Part shown: positions 4,065 to 8,337 of the stretch, one piece after another
Position numbering within the stretch: position 1 is the first letter of the stretch
Layout of the letters: every line of letters starts with the position of its first letter
Assembly: GCA_029979325.1 (NCBI GenBank)
Contig: JAPOHS010000026.1
Location: forward strand, 1 to 14,209
Length of the DNA stretch: 14,209 nucleotides
Direction of reading: 5' to 3'
DNA from: Pseudomonadota bacterium
GTDB taxonomy: Bacteria; Pseudomonadota; Gammaproteobacteria; UBA11654
The notes under the pieces: model-generated
What the model was told of the DNA's origin: nothing
What the model saw: only the letters and a program-made list of their open reading frames with translations
Databases searched by the model: none
Made by a program: the position numbers and the translations under genes

Positions 4065-5342
4065 GTGATTGAGAATTTTAAAAAAAGAATTTTTGATATA
4101 CCTGCTGAGGATAGATCTTCATTATTGAGAGCCTTCTTCTTCTTTTACTTCGTTTTGTGTTCTTGGTATTCAATTCGTCCTGTTAGAAATGAAATGGCTG
4201 TTCAAGCTGGATTAGAGAATCTTCCGAGTCTTTTATCGATTGTTTTATTGGTCATGTTGATTGCAAATCCAGTCTATTCATGGCTGGTTTCTCGTATTAA
4301 TCGAAACAAAATCGTCCTGTATTTCTACCTATTTTTCATTCTAAACCTTTTGTTATTCTTTTTTTCATGGGTTTTGCTTGATGAATCCTGGAAACCAATG
4401 ATCGCAAAGAGTTTTTATATATGGTGCAATGTCTTCTCTTTTTTTGTGGTCTCAATCTTTTGGGTATCCATGATCAACTACTTCAGTGGATCCCAAGCAA
4501 AACTTTACTTTGGTATCATCAGCGCAGGAGGATCAATAGGTGCTTTCGCAGGCTCCTCCATTGCAAGAATCTTTTCTACACAAGTTTGTGGATCAGTGAC
4601 TTTATCTGATTGGGGACCATTTTCATTGATATTGATTTCTGTTTTGTCTTTATCGATTGCCTGTTTATTGAGCATGTCATTTAAATCTAACGCAAATGAC
4701 AAAGCAGAGAGCGTGAGCAATGATAGTTTTTCTGGTTCAGCATTTGAGCCAGTTACAGAAATTGTTCAATCATCTGTGCTTAAAAATCTGAGTTTATATA
4801 TGGTTTTATGGACAGGCTTGATGACATTTGGATGGATGATCGCTTTGGGTATCGTTCAAGAATGGTCAACTGATCCATGTGAAAGAACAGCATTTTTTGC
4901 CAGGATTGAGCAGATTGTTACACCTTTAACACTCATATGTCAGTTCTTCTTGACTTCATTTGTCTTGCGATCTTTTGGTATCAAGAAGGTTTTAATCATT
5001 TACGGATTCATACTATTCGCAGCAATCTATTTCTATGAAATATATCCTGAAATCATGACAGTCTTGATTGTTGTTTCAATCTTGAGAACATTTGAATATG
5101 GCTTATCAAAACCAGCAAGAGAAAGCCTGTTCACTAAGCTCAAAAGAGAGCAACGTTATAAATCAACTGTTTTCATGGATACTTTCTTTGCGAGGGGAGG
5201 GGAAGTCATGGGCAGTTGGTTTGCCGCCAAAGGCGCCTTAATGCTTGGCATTTCCTCCATGGGGGCAACATTATTTATGATTCCATTTGCTGCTCTCTTA
5301 TCTTGGGCCGGATACAAATCTTCAAAGCTGTTAGACGAATAA
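4065..5342 (+). CDS. ATP/ADP-translocase-like membrane carrier (NTP/NDP exchange family)
   Basis: A 425-residue integral membrane protein with about 12 hydrophobic segments. Several patterns match the bacterial group annotated as MFS or NTP/NDP exchange carriers: SIRPVRNEM (36-44) at the end of the first membrane helix, KLYFGIISAGGSIGA (146-160), a WSTDPCERTAFFARIEQ region (267-283), YGLSKPARESLF (345-356) and RYKSTVFMDTFFARGGEVM (364-382). Characterised relatives in intracellular bacteria swap ATP for ADP or import nucleotides. The branch found in free-living proteobacteria has no proven substrate, so nucleotide transport is only a family-level inference. The start is GTG; an in-frame TGA at 4053-4055 excludes a longer form, and no clear ribosome binding site is seen. 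A hairpin terminator follows 11 nt after the stop. Confidence 0.75.
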   Translation: MIENFKKRIFDIPAEDRSSLLRAFFFFYFVLCSWYSIRPVRNEMAVQAGLENLPSLLSIVLLVMLIANPVYSWLVSRINRNKIVLYFYLFFILNLLLFFFSWVLLDESWKPMIAKSFYIWCNVFSFFVVSIFWVSMINYFSGSQAKLYFGIISAGGSIGAFAGSSIARIFSTQVCGSVTLSDWGPFSLILISVLSLSIACLLSMSFKSNANDKAESVSNDSFSGSAFEPVTEIVQSSVLKNLSLYMVLWTGLMTFGWMIALGIVQEWSTDPCERTAFFARIEQIVTPLTLICQFFLTSFVLRSFGIKKVLIIYGFILFAAIYFYEIYPEIMTVLIVVSILRTFEYGLSKPARESLFTKLKREQRYKSTVFMDTFFARGGEVMGSWFAAKGALMLGISSMGATLFMIPFAALLSWAGYKSSKLLDE

Positions 5343-5353
5343 TGGACAAAAAA

Positions 5354-5375
5354 AAACAGAGCATTCGCTCTGTTT
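5354..5375 (-). terminator. Terminator of the candidate non-coding RNA
   Basis: On the minus strand the 9-bp hairpin runs into nine T (complement of A 5348-5356), a strong intrinsic terminator. It is shared back to back with the carrier gene on the plus strand. Confidence 0.75.
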
Positions 5376-5382
5376 CTTTAGT
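5354..5382 (+). terminator. Rho-independent terminator of the carrier gene (works in both directions)
   Basis: A 9-bp perfect stem AAACAGAGC (5354-5362) / GCTCTGTTT (5367-5375) encloses the 4-nt loop ATTC and runs into TTTCTTTA on the plus strand. The A9 run at 5348-5356 on the other side gives a nine-T tail on the minus strand, so the same hairpin can end transcription arriving from either side. Confidence 0.85.
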
Positions 5383-5582
5383 CGAGTCCTTGGGGTGTCT
5401 GAAGCGAGATTCTTTCTTCAGCGCCTCGCCCGGTATCTCTTTCCGAACTTGGTGGGAATCAGTTCTCTTTTGCTGCTAGCTTATCTTCCCTGATTCGCTT
5501 TCACCCTTTAGGTCTCTTTCTCTTTTTGACTCTCCCTTCCGCGTCTTAAGTTACTTTCGGGTCGGTCTCAAGAGATGATTTA

Positions 5583-5610
5583 ATATTACGACTTACTTAT
5601 TTTTTTTCAA
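5583..5610 (-). promoter_or_regulatory. Promoter of the candidate non-coding RNA
   Basis: Read on the minus strand, a -35 hexamer TTGAAA (5610-5605) is followed by a 16-bp spacer and a -10-like TAATAT (5588-5583, four of six consensus bases). Transcription would start near 5576, exactly where the AT-rich DNA gives way to the GC-richer RNA sequence. A TCGCGA palindrome (5617-5622) sits just upstream of the -35. Confidence 0.5.
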
Positions 5611-5654
5611 ATACATTCGCGAGAAAAACCAAAGTTTTTTTCATGGATTTTTTT

Positions 5655-5666
5655 TATGTCCTATAA
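5655..5666 (+). repeat. Direct repeat TATGTCCTATAA, copy 1
   Basis: Exact 12-bp match to 5743-5754, 88 bp away, in an otherwise very AT-rich gap. The GTCC core makes it stand out. It may be a binding site; no known regulator is matched. Confidence 0.5.
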
Positions 5667-5742
5667 AAAATAATATCCAATATTAAGAGTATTTTATAAC
5701 CTACTGATATTTCTAACTATCCAGGAAAAATTGAATAAAAAA

Positions 5743-5754
5743 TATGTCCTATAA
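5743..5754 (+). repeat. Direct repeat TATGTCCTATAA, copy 2
   Basis: Second exact copy of the 12-mer at 5655-5666. It lies 122 bp before the pxpA start codon, with runs of A and T on both sides. Confidence 0.5.
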
Positions 5755-5796
5755 GTATTTTTTTAAAAAAATAAAAAAAATGAAATAAAAAAATAA

Positions 5797-5854
5797 ATTT
5801 GCGCAAATGTAATTATTTGAGGGTTATTATTAGTTTAATAATCCTTATATAAAT
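5797..5854 (+). promoter_or_regulatory. Probable promoter/operator region of pxpABC
   Basis: This stretch upstream of pxpA holds a perfect 12-bp palindrome ATTTGCGCAAAT (5797-5808), an inverted repeat TTATTA-N6-TAATAA (5824-5841), and a -10-like TATATA/TATAAA at 5846-5853. No good -35 is found at the right distance (TTGAGG at 5817 is too far), which would fit an activator-dependent promoter. The palindrome could be an operator. No other promoter is seen before pxpB or pxpC. Confidence 0.4.
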
Positions 5855-5875
5855 GATCATTTTTGACTCAATTTA

Positions 5876-6646
5876 ATGAAAAATAATAAACGAATGGACT
5901 TAAACGCAGATTTGGGTGAGTACAAATCTAGCGATACATTCAAAAATGAGATTTCACTCATTCAGCACATCACATCTGCAAGTATTGCTTGCGGAGGTCA
6001 CGCTGGGGATGAAGAGTCAGTGGGCAATATGATTGACCATTGCATTAGACACAATGTTTTATTTGGCCCACATCCTTCTTATCCCGATAAAAAAGCGTTT
6101 GGGCGAAAGAGATTATCGATCAGCGATGAATCATTGACGCAGTCGATTATTGATCAAATAACATTATTATTGGAAATTGCTGAAAGCCGACAAGCTGAAC
6201 CAACGCATGTAAAATTTCATGGTCAACTTTACAACGATTGCTTTTTAGATGAAGAACTCAGTCAGCTCTGCCTGTCTGCCATGCAAACAGTCTGTCCAAA
6301 TATAGCTCTCATTTGTCAACCTTATTCTGCAATCAGCCAAATCGCTGGAAGATCAGGCATCAAGGTCATAAATGAGGCATTTGTTGATCGCAGGTATCAA
6401 TCAAATGGAGCCTTAGTAAAGAGAATGATTACAGGTGCTGTCATATCATCTCTAGATGAAAAAGCAAAACAGGCAGCTTCAATAACATTCGAAGAGAAAG
6501 TATTGTCTGAGAATGCGGAAGAAATTCAGATAGCAGCAGATACACTTTGTATCCACAGTGACCATAATGAATCTGTGGAAACTGCGATAGCAATCAAAGA
6601 GATGTTGGAAAAACATCAATGTGAAATAAAGAGTTATGAATTTTAA
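5876..6646 (+). CDS. pxpA: 5-oxoprolinase subunit PxpA (LamB/YcsF family)
   Basis: A 256-residue subunit of the bacterial ATP-dependent 5-oxoprolinase PxpABC, which opens 5-oxoproline to glutamate in the cytoplasm. PxpA is thought to hydrolyse the phosphorylated intermediate. Family motifs in order: MDLNADLGE (7-15), ACGGHAGD (38-45), FGPHPSYPD (63-71), FGRKRL (75-80), HVKFHGQLYN (111-120), EAFVDRRYQSNGALVKR (167-183) and CIHSDH (225-230). Most relatives have VKPHGALYN and HGDN at the two later sites, so this is a somewhat divergent member with the catalytic His and Asp kept. ATG 5876 gives six extra residues; ATG 5894 starts directly at MDLNADLGE, closer to the usual N-terminus. Neither has a clear ribosome binding site. 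Its end overlaps pxpB by 11 nt. Confidence 0.93.
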   Translation: MKNNKRMDLNADLGEYKSSDTFKNEISLIQHITSASIACGGHAGDEESVGNMIDHCIRHNVLFGPHPSYPDKKAFGRKRLSISDESLTQSIIDQITLLLEIAESRQAEPTHVKFHGQLYNDCFLDEELSQLCLSAMQTVCPNIALICQPYSAISQIAGRSGIKVINEAFVDRRYQSNGALVKRMITGAVISSLDEKAKQAASITFEEKVLSENAEEIQIAADTLCIHSDHNESVETAIAIKEMLEKHQCEIKSYEF

Positions 6647-8260: not shown

Positions 8261-8337
8261 GCGCCTGTAGCTCAGCTGGATAGAGTACCTGGCTTCGAAC
8301 CAGGCGGTCGGGGGTTCGAATCCCTCCGGGCGCGCCA
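8261..8337 (+). tRNA. tRNA-Arg (anticodon UCG)
   Basis: The acceptor stem GCGCCTG (8261-8267) pairs with CGGGCGC (8327-8333). The D-arm is TAGCTCAGCTGGATAGAG, and the anticodon stem CCTGG/CCAGG encloses loop CTTCGAA with anticodon TCG at 8295-8297. The T-arm holds GTTCGAATC, and CCA is encoded at 8335-8337. It lies only 10 bases after pxpC and 18 bases before the next start codon, with no separate terminator, so it is probably excised from a longer transcript. Confidence 0.97.

Follow-up and report, generated by a model that had tools for sequence, protein, structure and literature searches.

The minus strand of the DNA analysed here, a stretch of 14,209 nucleotides referred to as the window, carries what by sequence is a genuine gene of IMES-1 (Rfam RF02034), a known but unexplained family of small RNAs. 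The host is a gammaproteobacterium related to draft genomes of 1.1–1.5 Mb, and its copy of this known RNA sits in a group outside the SAR86 order. Sequence comparison reveals a promoter and a terminator that are conserved among kin, a conserved genomic place, the helices P2 to P5 and a hexamer in the P3 loop that is always self-complementary. We consider it likely that IMES-1 is transcribed as a free-standing structural RNA, which would form a homodimer and probably serves, independently of Hfq, ProQ and CsrA, as a scaffold or binding platform. To our knowledge, IMES-1 has been an orphan ocean RNA since 2009. The IMES papers of that year reportedly described a marine origin and a very high abundance of IMES-1 in ocean metatranscriptomes. 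SAR86 counts among the abundant bacteria in surface seawater.

Identification of the minus-strand RNA gene

The first-pass annotation had proposed a minus-strand gene for a structured RNA, bracketed by a promoter and a terminator, called it undescribed and suggested a covariance-model search. When the window was scanned with the Rfam models, RF02034 was matched at 5573–5373 on the minus strand with 112.3 bits, above the gathering cut-off of 81 (E = 6.2e-24). The match covers positions 1–191 of the 191 in the model, is not truncated and includes the conserved hairpins and loops. Apart from IMES-1, the only match in 5330–5640 at E ≤ 1 was a snoRNA (12.4 bits, E = 0.87). The RNA gene itself is thus strongly supported by conservation, but its family is known, and the claim that it is undescribed and of no recognised family therefore fails. 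The window RNA has the same hairpin order and conserved loops as IMES-1 elsewhere. It differs in that its group, outside the SAR86 order, scores 83–113 bits and has a longer P3, whereas most copies from SAR86 reach higher scores, 206 bits at most, although one SAR86 group also lies at 109–140 bits. From the position of the −10 element and the U run we place the putative transcript of about 230 nt at 5576–5348 on the minus strand, starting near 5576 and ending in the U run.

The −35 element TTGAAA (5610–5605, minus strand) and the −10 element TAATAT (5588–5583, minus strand) are separated by 16 bp, as had been annotated. The intrinsic terminator (5372–5348, minus strand) consists of the hairpin CAGAGC-N4-GCUCUG at 5372–5357, followed by nine T at 5356–5348, which are nine U in the RNA. 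On the window alone both signals are weak: a promoter scan gave 7 sites compared to 4.9 (sd 2.4) in shuffles, and a terminator scan of the window listed 0 sites, though the terminator hairpin appears in the computed fold. They become significant because they are conserved in related loci. Of 87 unique upstream stretches, 69 contain a promoter site with a score of 8 or more out of 12, and 68 of these have the 16-bp spacer; among the 10 listed stretches that fall short, the score is 7 in 8, and 2 are without any site. Downstream, a hairpin abutting T6 or longer is present in 86 of 87 unique stretches. Moreover, the terminator stem changes in a compensatory way between groups, from CAGAG/CTCTG to CTGAG/CTCAG.

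The RNA strand has a folding energy of −71.4 kcal/mol, and none of 200 dinucleotide shuffles folds as well (z = −4.16), which agrees with the earlier description of a stable structured RNA. Stops interrupt all three minus-strand frames, leaving no usable reading frame, as had also been noted. The description as a GC-richer island in an AT-rich gap holds on one side only. The GC content is 0.45–0.49 over 5350–5549 and falls to 0.14–0.21 over 5600–5849, but it is still 0.40–0.49 over 5150–5349, on the side of the carrier gene, so that the island is one-sided.

Genomic context and conservation among relatives

IMES-1 lies between a carrier gene (4065–5342, plus strand), with which it is convergent, and pxpA of the LamB/YcsF family (5876–6646, plus strand), from which it diverges. 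The carrier gene had been called an ATP/ADP-type carrier; its sole Pfam match is MFS_1 at 27.5 bits, below the cut-off of 33.4. Ten genomes carry window-like copies of IMES-1 (G052, G013, G027, G029, G016, G004, G009, G020, G077 and G115). The carrier gene adjoins the RNA in nine of them, the exception being G016, where the contig ends, and pxpA likewise in nine, the exception being G115, of which only 3.2 kb were examined.

The closest relative of the window copy is that of G052 (L072), with 97.6% identity over 287 nt of the RNA gene. In the four close relatives L072, L065, L066 and L064, IMES-1 is 95–98% and the promoter 92–100% identical to the window, compared to 70–84% for the compared part of pxpA and 76–85% for the rest of the gap. 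The AT-rich remainder of the gap (5613–5875), with its 76–85% identity to these four relatives, may hold the pxpA promoter.

In SAR86, the neighbours of IMES-1 vary by locus, and the gene therefore looks free-standing and not tied to one operon. Families that recur nearby are those of indoleamine dioxygenase, oxaloacetate decarboxylase, malate synthase, pyruvate kinase and the ammonium transporter. Elsewhere in the window, we found genes for tRNA-Ser(GCT) at 372–462 and for tRNA-Arg(TCG) at 8261–8337, the latter between pxpC and a PNPOx-like gene.

Distribution of IMES-1

A DNA pattern scan of a named genome collection gave 40 stretches, of which 21 carry SAR86 titles, 10 are titled gammaproteobacteria, Proteobacteria, Woeseia or Woeseiaceae, and 9 belong to other groups. 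Together with one viral hit, these stretches trace back to 39 genomes or records, in 29 of which the Rfam model confirmed IMES-1. The ten records without IMES-1 by this model were discarded as chance pattern matches. Among them was the sole viral hit (L041), and a phage origin was rejected on this ground. A tblastn search with pxpC against phage records returned five distant matches, which are uninformative here.

We then considered the order of G003, referred to as the SAR86 order, and that of G029, the second order, which is the group nearest to the window. Searches over more than 40 genomes ran with stricter filters, by which some weak matches were lost. With this reservation, IMES-1 matches were found in 124 of 199 SAR86-order genomes (117 above the cut-off) and in 11 of 196 second-order genomes. 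All 11 bearers in the second order have 1.1–1.5 Mb, while listed members of that order reach 6.7 Mb. In a class-wide sample, IMES-1 was found in 3 of 369 genomes, namely G029 and two from the SAR86-order sample. A model of our own (R1), built from an alignment (A1) in which the hexamer described below is misplaced between groups and containing only 15 pairs, was run on 40 SAR86-order genomes without clear IMES-1. It gave 2 weak matches (E about 0.08) and missed five genomes with weak RF02034 matches; it is therefore no more sensitive there than the Rfam model.

Two or three IMES-1 matches are listed in 29 of the 124 matching SAR86-order genomes, some of them being fragments at contig ends. Several pairs lie 0.3–10 kb apart with equal or near-equal scores, as if dosage mattered. 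In addition, G025 (L034/L059), a metagenome-assembled genome titled Woeseiaceae, carries an IMES-1 of the SAR86 A-group type (189.5 bits). This genome is also the only one of 34 tested bearers with Hfq, and CsrA is present as well; the copy may stem from a misbinned contig or from transfer.

Secondary structure and covariation

From part of all listed matches we extracted 149 sequences, which gave 132 unique cores after identical ones had been collapsed. On the basis of motifs we divided them into the groups W (for window-like sequences), A, B and C, four sets that do not represent a tested phylogeny. The alignment of relatives and the covariation analysis that had been suggested for this region were carried out, and helices P2 to P5 emerged from the sequence comparison. 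In the window, all on the minus strand, the 5′ strand of P2 (GAG A CCU ... GGGUG) lies at 5516–5502 and its 3′ strand (CACCC ... AGG A CUC) at 5397–5384, the inner part being well paired and the outer part weaker. P2 encloses three hairpins: P3 at 5495–5457 with the stem AAUCAG/CUGAUU and a large loop of 27 nt, P4 at 5448–5428 with the loop GAGAU at 5439–5435, and P5 at 5420–5400 with the loop AUCUC at 5410–5406, complementary to that of P4. P3 and P4 are joined by the near-invariant linker CCACCAAG (5455–5448), whose last G is the first base of the P4 stem. This linker and the stretches AAAGC and AAGG are the near-invariant unpaired parts of the RNA.

In the A group (alignment A2), 98.1% of the cells are paired in P3, 93.4% in P4 and 99.2% in P5, with changes on both sides, and the P3 stem covaries in this SAR86 group. 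For P2 the value is 84.1%, the counts of its outer part being lowered because some rows are trimmed and the 3′ end is shifted. In the other groups (alignment A3), pairing amounts to 94.0% in inner P2, 56.8% in outer P2, 98.1% in P4 and 81.4% in P5. The pairs of the window P3 stem fit these groups at only 39.4% of the cells as aligned, because P3 differs there. The covariation of the other-group structure (0.299, compared to 0.145 in shuffles) was not reached by any of 500 shuffles, while two cruder measures did not stand out, with 222 and 273 of 500 shuffles reaching them.

Complementarity between the P4 loop GAGA(U) and the P5 loop (A)UCUC extends to 100% of the A-group cells, where three of the four loop pairs never vary, and to 80.5% of those of the other groups. 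Both hairpins could be parsed in 146 of the 149 sequences, leaving out L161, L162 and L188. At least four contiguous pairs are possible in 78 of 86 loop combinations and three are kept in the remaining 8. Variant loops that still pair include AAGA/UCUU (L062), GAAAU/AUUUC (L070) and GAAGA/UCUUC (L138). The mean complement of 4.25 lies just above the maximum of 4.22 in 500 permutations; by contrast, 44 of 51 loop pairs share four or more complementary bases, a count that permutations also reach (maximum 45). These two loops could thus pair with each other, within or between molecules, with less certainty than the P3 loop described next.

A self-complementary hexamer in the P3 loop

The P3 loop of the window RNA contains the self-complementary hexamer GCUAGC (5480–5475, minus strand), a predicted kissing site for a homodimer. 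Initially, the A-group hexamer was placed from its flanks alone, in 90 of 90 sequences, which show 8 different hexamers. Across all groups, each of the 132 unique sequences (132 of 132) has a self-complementary hexamer, and these hexamers fall into 12 distinct types; the window core has no separate row in this count because it was collapsed with an identical sequence. Watson-Crick pairs alone suffice in 95 sequences, while 37 need G·U pairs. A palindrome acting at the DNA level would not tolerate these 37, which fit self-pairing of the RNA. The window group alone has two types, GCUAGC (8) and GUUAAC (2), and the weakest bare duplexes are those of GUUAAC (−3.4 kcal/mol) and GUUGAC (−2.6 kcal/mol).

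Among the six-base segments tested (at most 10% gapped rows), the hexamer ranks first in each of the four groups. Two other segments are also 100% palindromic, TTCGAA in group B and AGATCT in group C, and both are invariant; second place in the A group goes to a strand of P5, at 95%. When the halves of the 12 types were permuted in 100,000 trials, 3.84 types on average and 10 at most were self-complementary, and never all 12. By pair counting, the hexamer is fully paired in 75 of 75 A-group rows and in 50 of 50 distinct rows of the other groups. Its covariation is 0.435 in the A group (shuffles, 0.268) and 0.541 in the others (shuffles, 0.116), values that none of 500 shuffles reached. When the partner was slid by 1 to 3 columns, covariation was at most 0.110, yet up to 92.4% of the cells could still pair. 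Two of five measures were not clearly above shuffles: 340 and 358 of 500 shuffles reach the number of pairs changed on both sides, and 17 and 204 of 500 that of further pair types. The sequences behind these counts are related and hence not independent; on a tree built without the hexamer, a Fitch count gave 16 palindrome-class changes and 26 hexamer changes. A control that ignored the register of the palindrome was weak, with a Watson-Crick palindrome in 72 of 85 inserts (48.5 expected, maximum 62) and a palindrome allowing G·U in 85 of 85 (72.2 expected, maximum 81).

The hexamer is predicted to be accessible: its unpaired probability is 0.74, compared to 0.49 for the whole RNA, and exceeds 0.5 in 124 of the 132 sequences. 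Furthermore, the innermost pair of the hexamer is formed by neighbouring columns. Such a pair is impossible within one strand and therefore points to two molecules. All these data suggest that the P3-loop hexamer mediates loop-loop homodimerisation of IMES-1, which has a covarying self-complementary loop like the RNA-only homo-oligomers.

RNA-binding proteins in genomes with and without IMES-1

Hfq, ProQ and CsrA were searched for in 56 genomes, 34 with IMES-1 and 22 from the SAR86 order for which no match is listed. Hfq was found in G025 only and ProQ in none of the 56. CsrA was present in 6 of the 34 bearers compared to 18 of the 22 SAR86-order genomes without IMES-1. In the ten window-group genomes, which are draft genomes of relatives, none of the three proteins was found (0/10 each). 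Among these relatives, IMES-1 is thus unlikely to be a CsrA-sponge RNA or an sRNA dependent on Hfq or ProQ, and we rejected the three proteins as its partners in the relatives tested. In 26 chosen second-order genomes without IMES-1, Hfq was found in 21 and CsrA in 17, the five Hfq misses all being genomes of 1.6–1.8 Mb. Bearers of IMES-1 tend to lack CsrA in the SAR86 order, and both Hfq and CsrA within the second order, in counts uncorrected for kinship and completeness. Since the ten relatives have no detectable Hfq, ProQ or CsrA, and 7 of the 10 carry a separate 6S gene, both a 6S identity and the classical chaperone or sponge routes are unlikely.

A model for IMES-1 and alternative explanations

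We propose that a promoter of the sigma-70 type would give a transcript of about 230 nt, which would fold into a 5′ hairpin followed by a domain closed by P2 and holding P3, P4 and P5. The P4 and P5 loops would kiss, and two IMES-1 molecules would be joined by symmetric kissing of their P3 loops. The homodimer may then act as a scaffold or binding platform whose partners contact AAAGC, CCACCAAG and AAGG, without the help of Hfq, ProQ or CsrA. We also lean towards a more far-reaching reading, in which IMES-1 would be a small RNA-only homodimer of about 230 nt that two small-genome lineages, with no detectable Hfq or ProQ and mostly no CsrA, keep under strong selection for self-pairing. It would then be an RNA machine that is independent of protein chaperones.

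A trans-acting antisense RNA that needs no chaperone and targets mRNAs through its purine-rich unpaired stretches, with the dimer only tuning stability or activity, is possible but on balance doubtful. The free-standing gene with promoter and terminator and the several near-invariant unpaired stretches would suit such an RNA. However, the near absence of Hfq and the absence of ProQ from the genomes tested speak against it, as does the composition of the unpaired stretches: typical sRNA seeds against ribosome-binding sites have the opposite composition to these mostly purine-rich sequences. That the hexamer pairs with some other RNA, or exists for another reason, and that IMES-1 is monomeric, is improbable. 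The dimer is a prediction and the large P3 loop could hold other contacts, but a partner RNA would need to track 12 hexamer types that all stay self-complementary, and the G·U variants fit self-pairing of the RNA.

An identity as a diverged, RNA polymerase-binding 6S RNA is very improbable for IMES-1. The two are alike in size and in being encoded by free-standing genes, and 6S matches were not found, in the search with stricter filters, in three close relatives of the window (G029, G013 and the closest, G052). However, RF00013 was absent from the window at the gathering threshold and from 5330–5640 at E ≤ 1, and separate 6S genes occur alongside IMES-1. Of the 199 SAR86-order genomes, 181 have a 6S match, which exceeds the cut-off in 139; these 181 include 110 of the 124 with IMES-1. 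In the second order, 144 of 196 genomes have one, among them 8 of the 11 bearers, including the close relatives G027 and G016. IMES-1 would thus not be the sole 6S-type RNA in most bearers, and a 6S identity was largely rejected, in line with the first-pass annotation, which had doubted it from the genomic position. The literature search on 6S RNA with SAR86 returned nothing relevant. A sponge for CsrA (CsrB/RsmZ-like) or for Hfq/Crc (CrcZ-like) is just as improbable, since the repeated AGAGA-type purine motifs and several GGA in the window sequence are set against the distribution of CsrA and Hfq given above, which rules out this reading in the relatives of the window unless an unrecognised CsrA or Hfq exists there.

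Comparison with known RNAs

The self-complementary P3 hexamer and the complementarity of the P4 and P5 loops appear to be new; the structure line of IMES-1 in Rfam draws neither self-pairing of the P3 loop nor a contact between P4 and P5. No paper on IMES-1 RNA or RF02034 was found in the literature searched, and the term IMES has 0 uses in the main text of PMC2864571 and in PMC13414033. The two original papers of 2009 lie outside this literature, and priority of the homodimer idea is therefore not established. The host range, a testable quaternary structure and the evidence against the 6S, Hfq, ProQ and CsrA routes sharpen the question of what IMES-1 does.

Among known systems, two kinds of dimerising loop invite comparison with the predicted P3 contact. 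The dimerisation initiation site of HIV-1 is a six-base palindrome flanked by purines within a hairpin loop. The window hexamer is similarly flanked (A...A), but there is no homology, and the organism and context are different. Closer in kind are the RNA-only homo-oligomers OLE, GOLLD and ROOL, with which IMES-1 would share symmetric kissing loops. PMC12286853 makes the same palindrome argument for loop-loop homodimers of OLE L9.3 and GOLLD L21a, and describes how the palindrome of OLE L9.3 switches between GGCC, GAUC and AGCU. The Rfam scan of the window found no relation to OLE, GOLLD or ROOL. IMES-1 differs from them in that it has only about 230 nt and its oligomer is a prediction. If the dimerisation holds true, a small RNA of SAR86 would join these recently recognised natural RNA-only oligomers.
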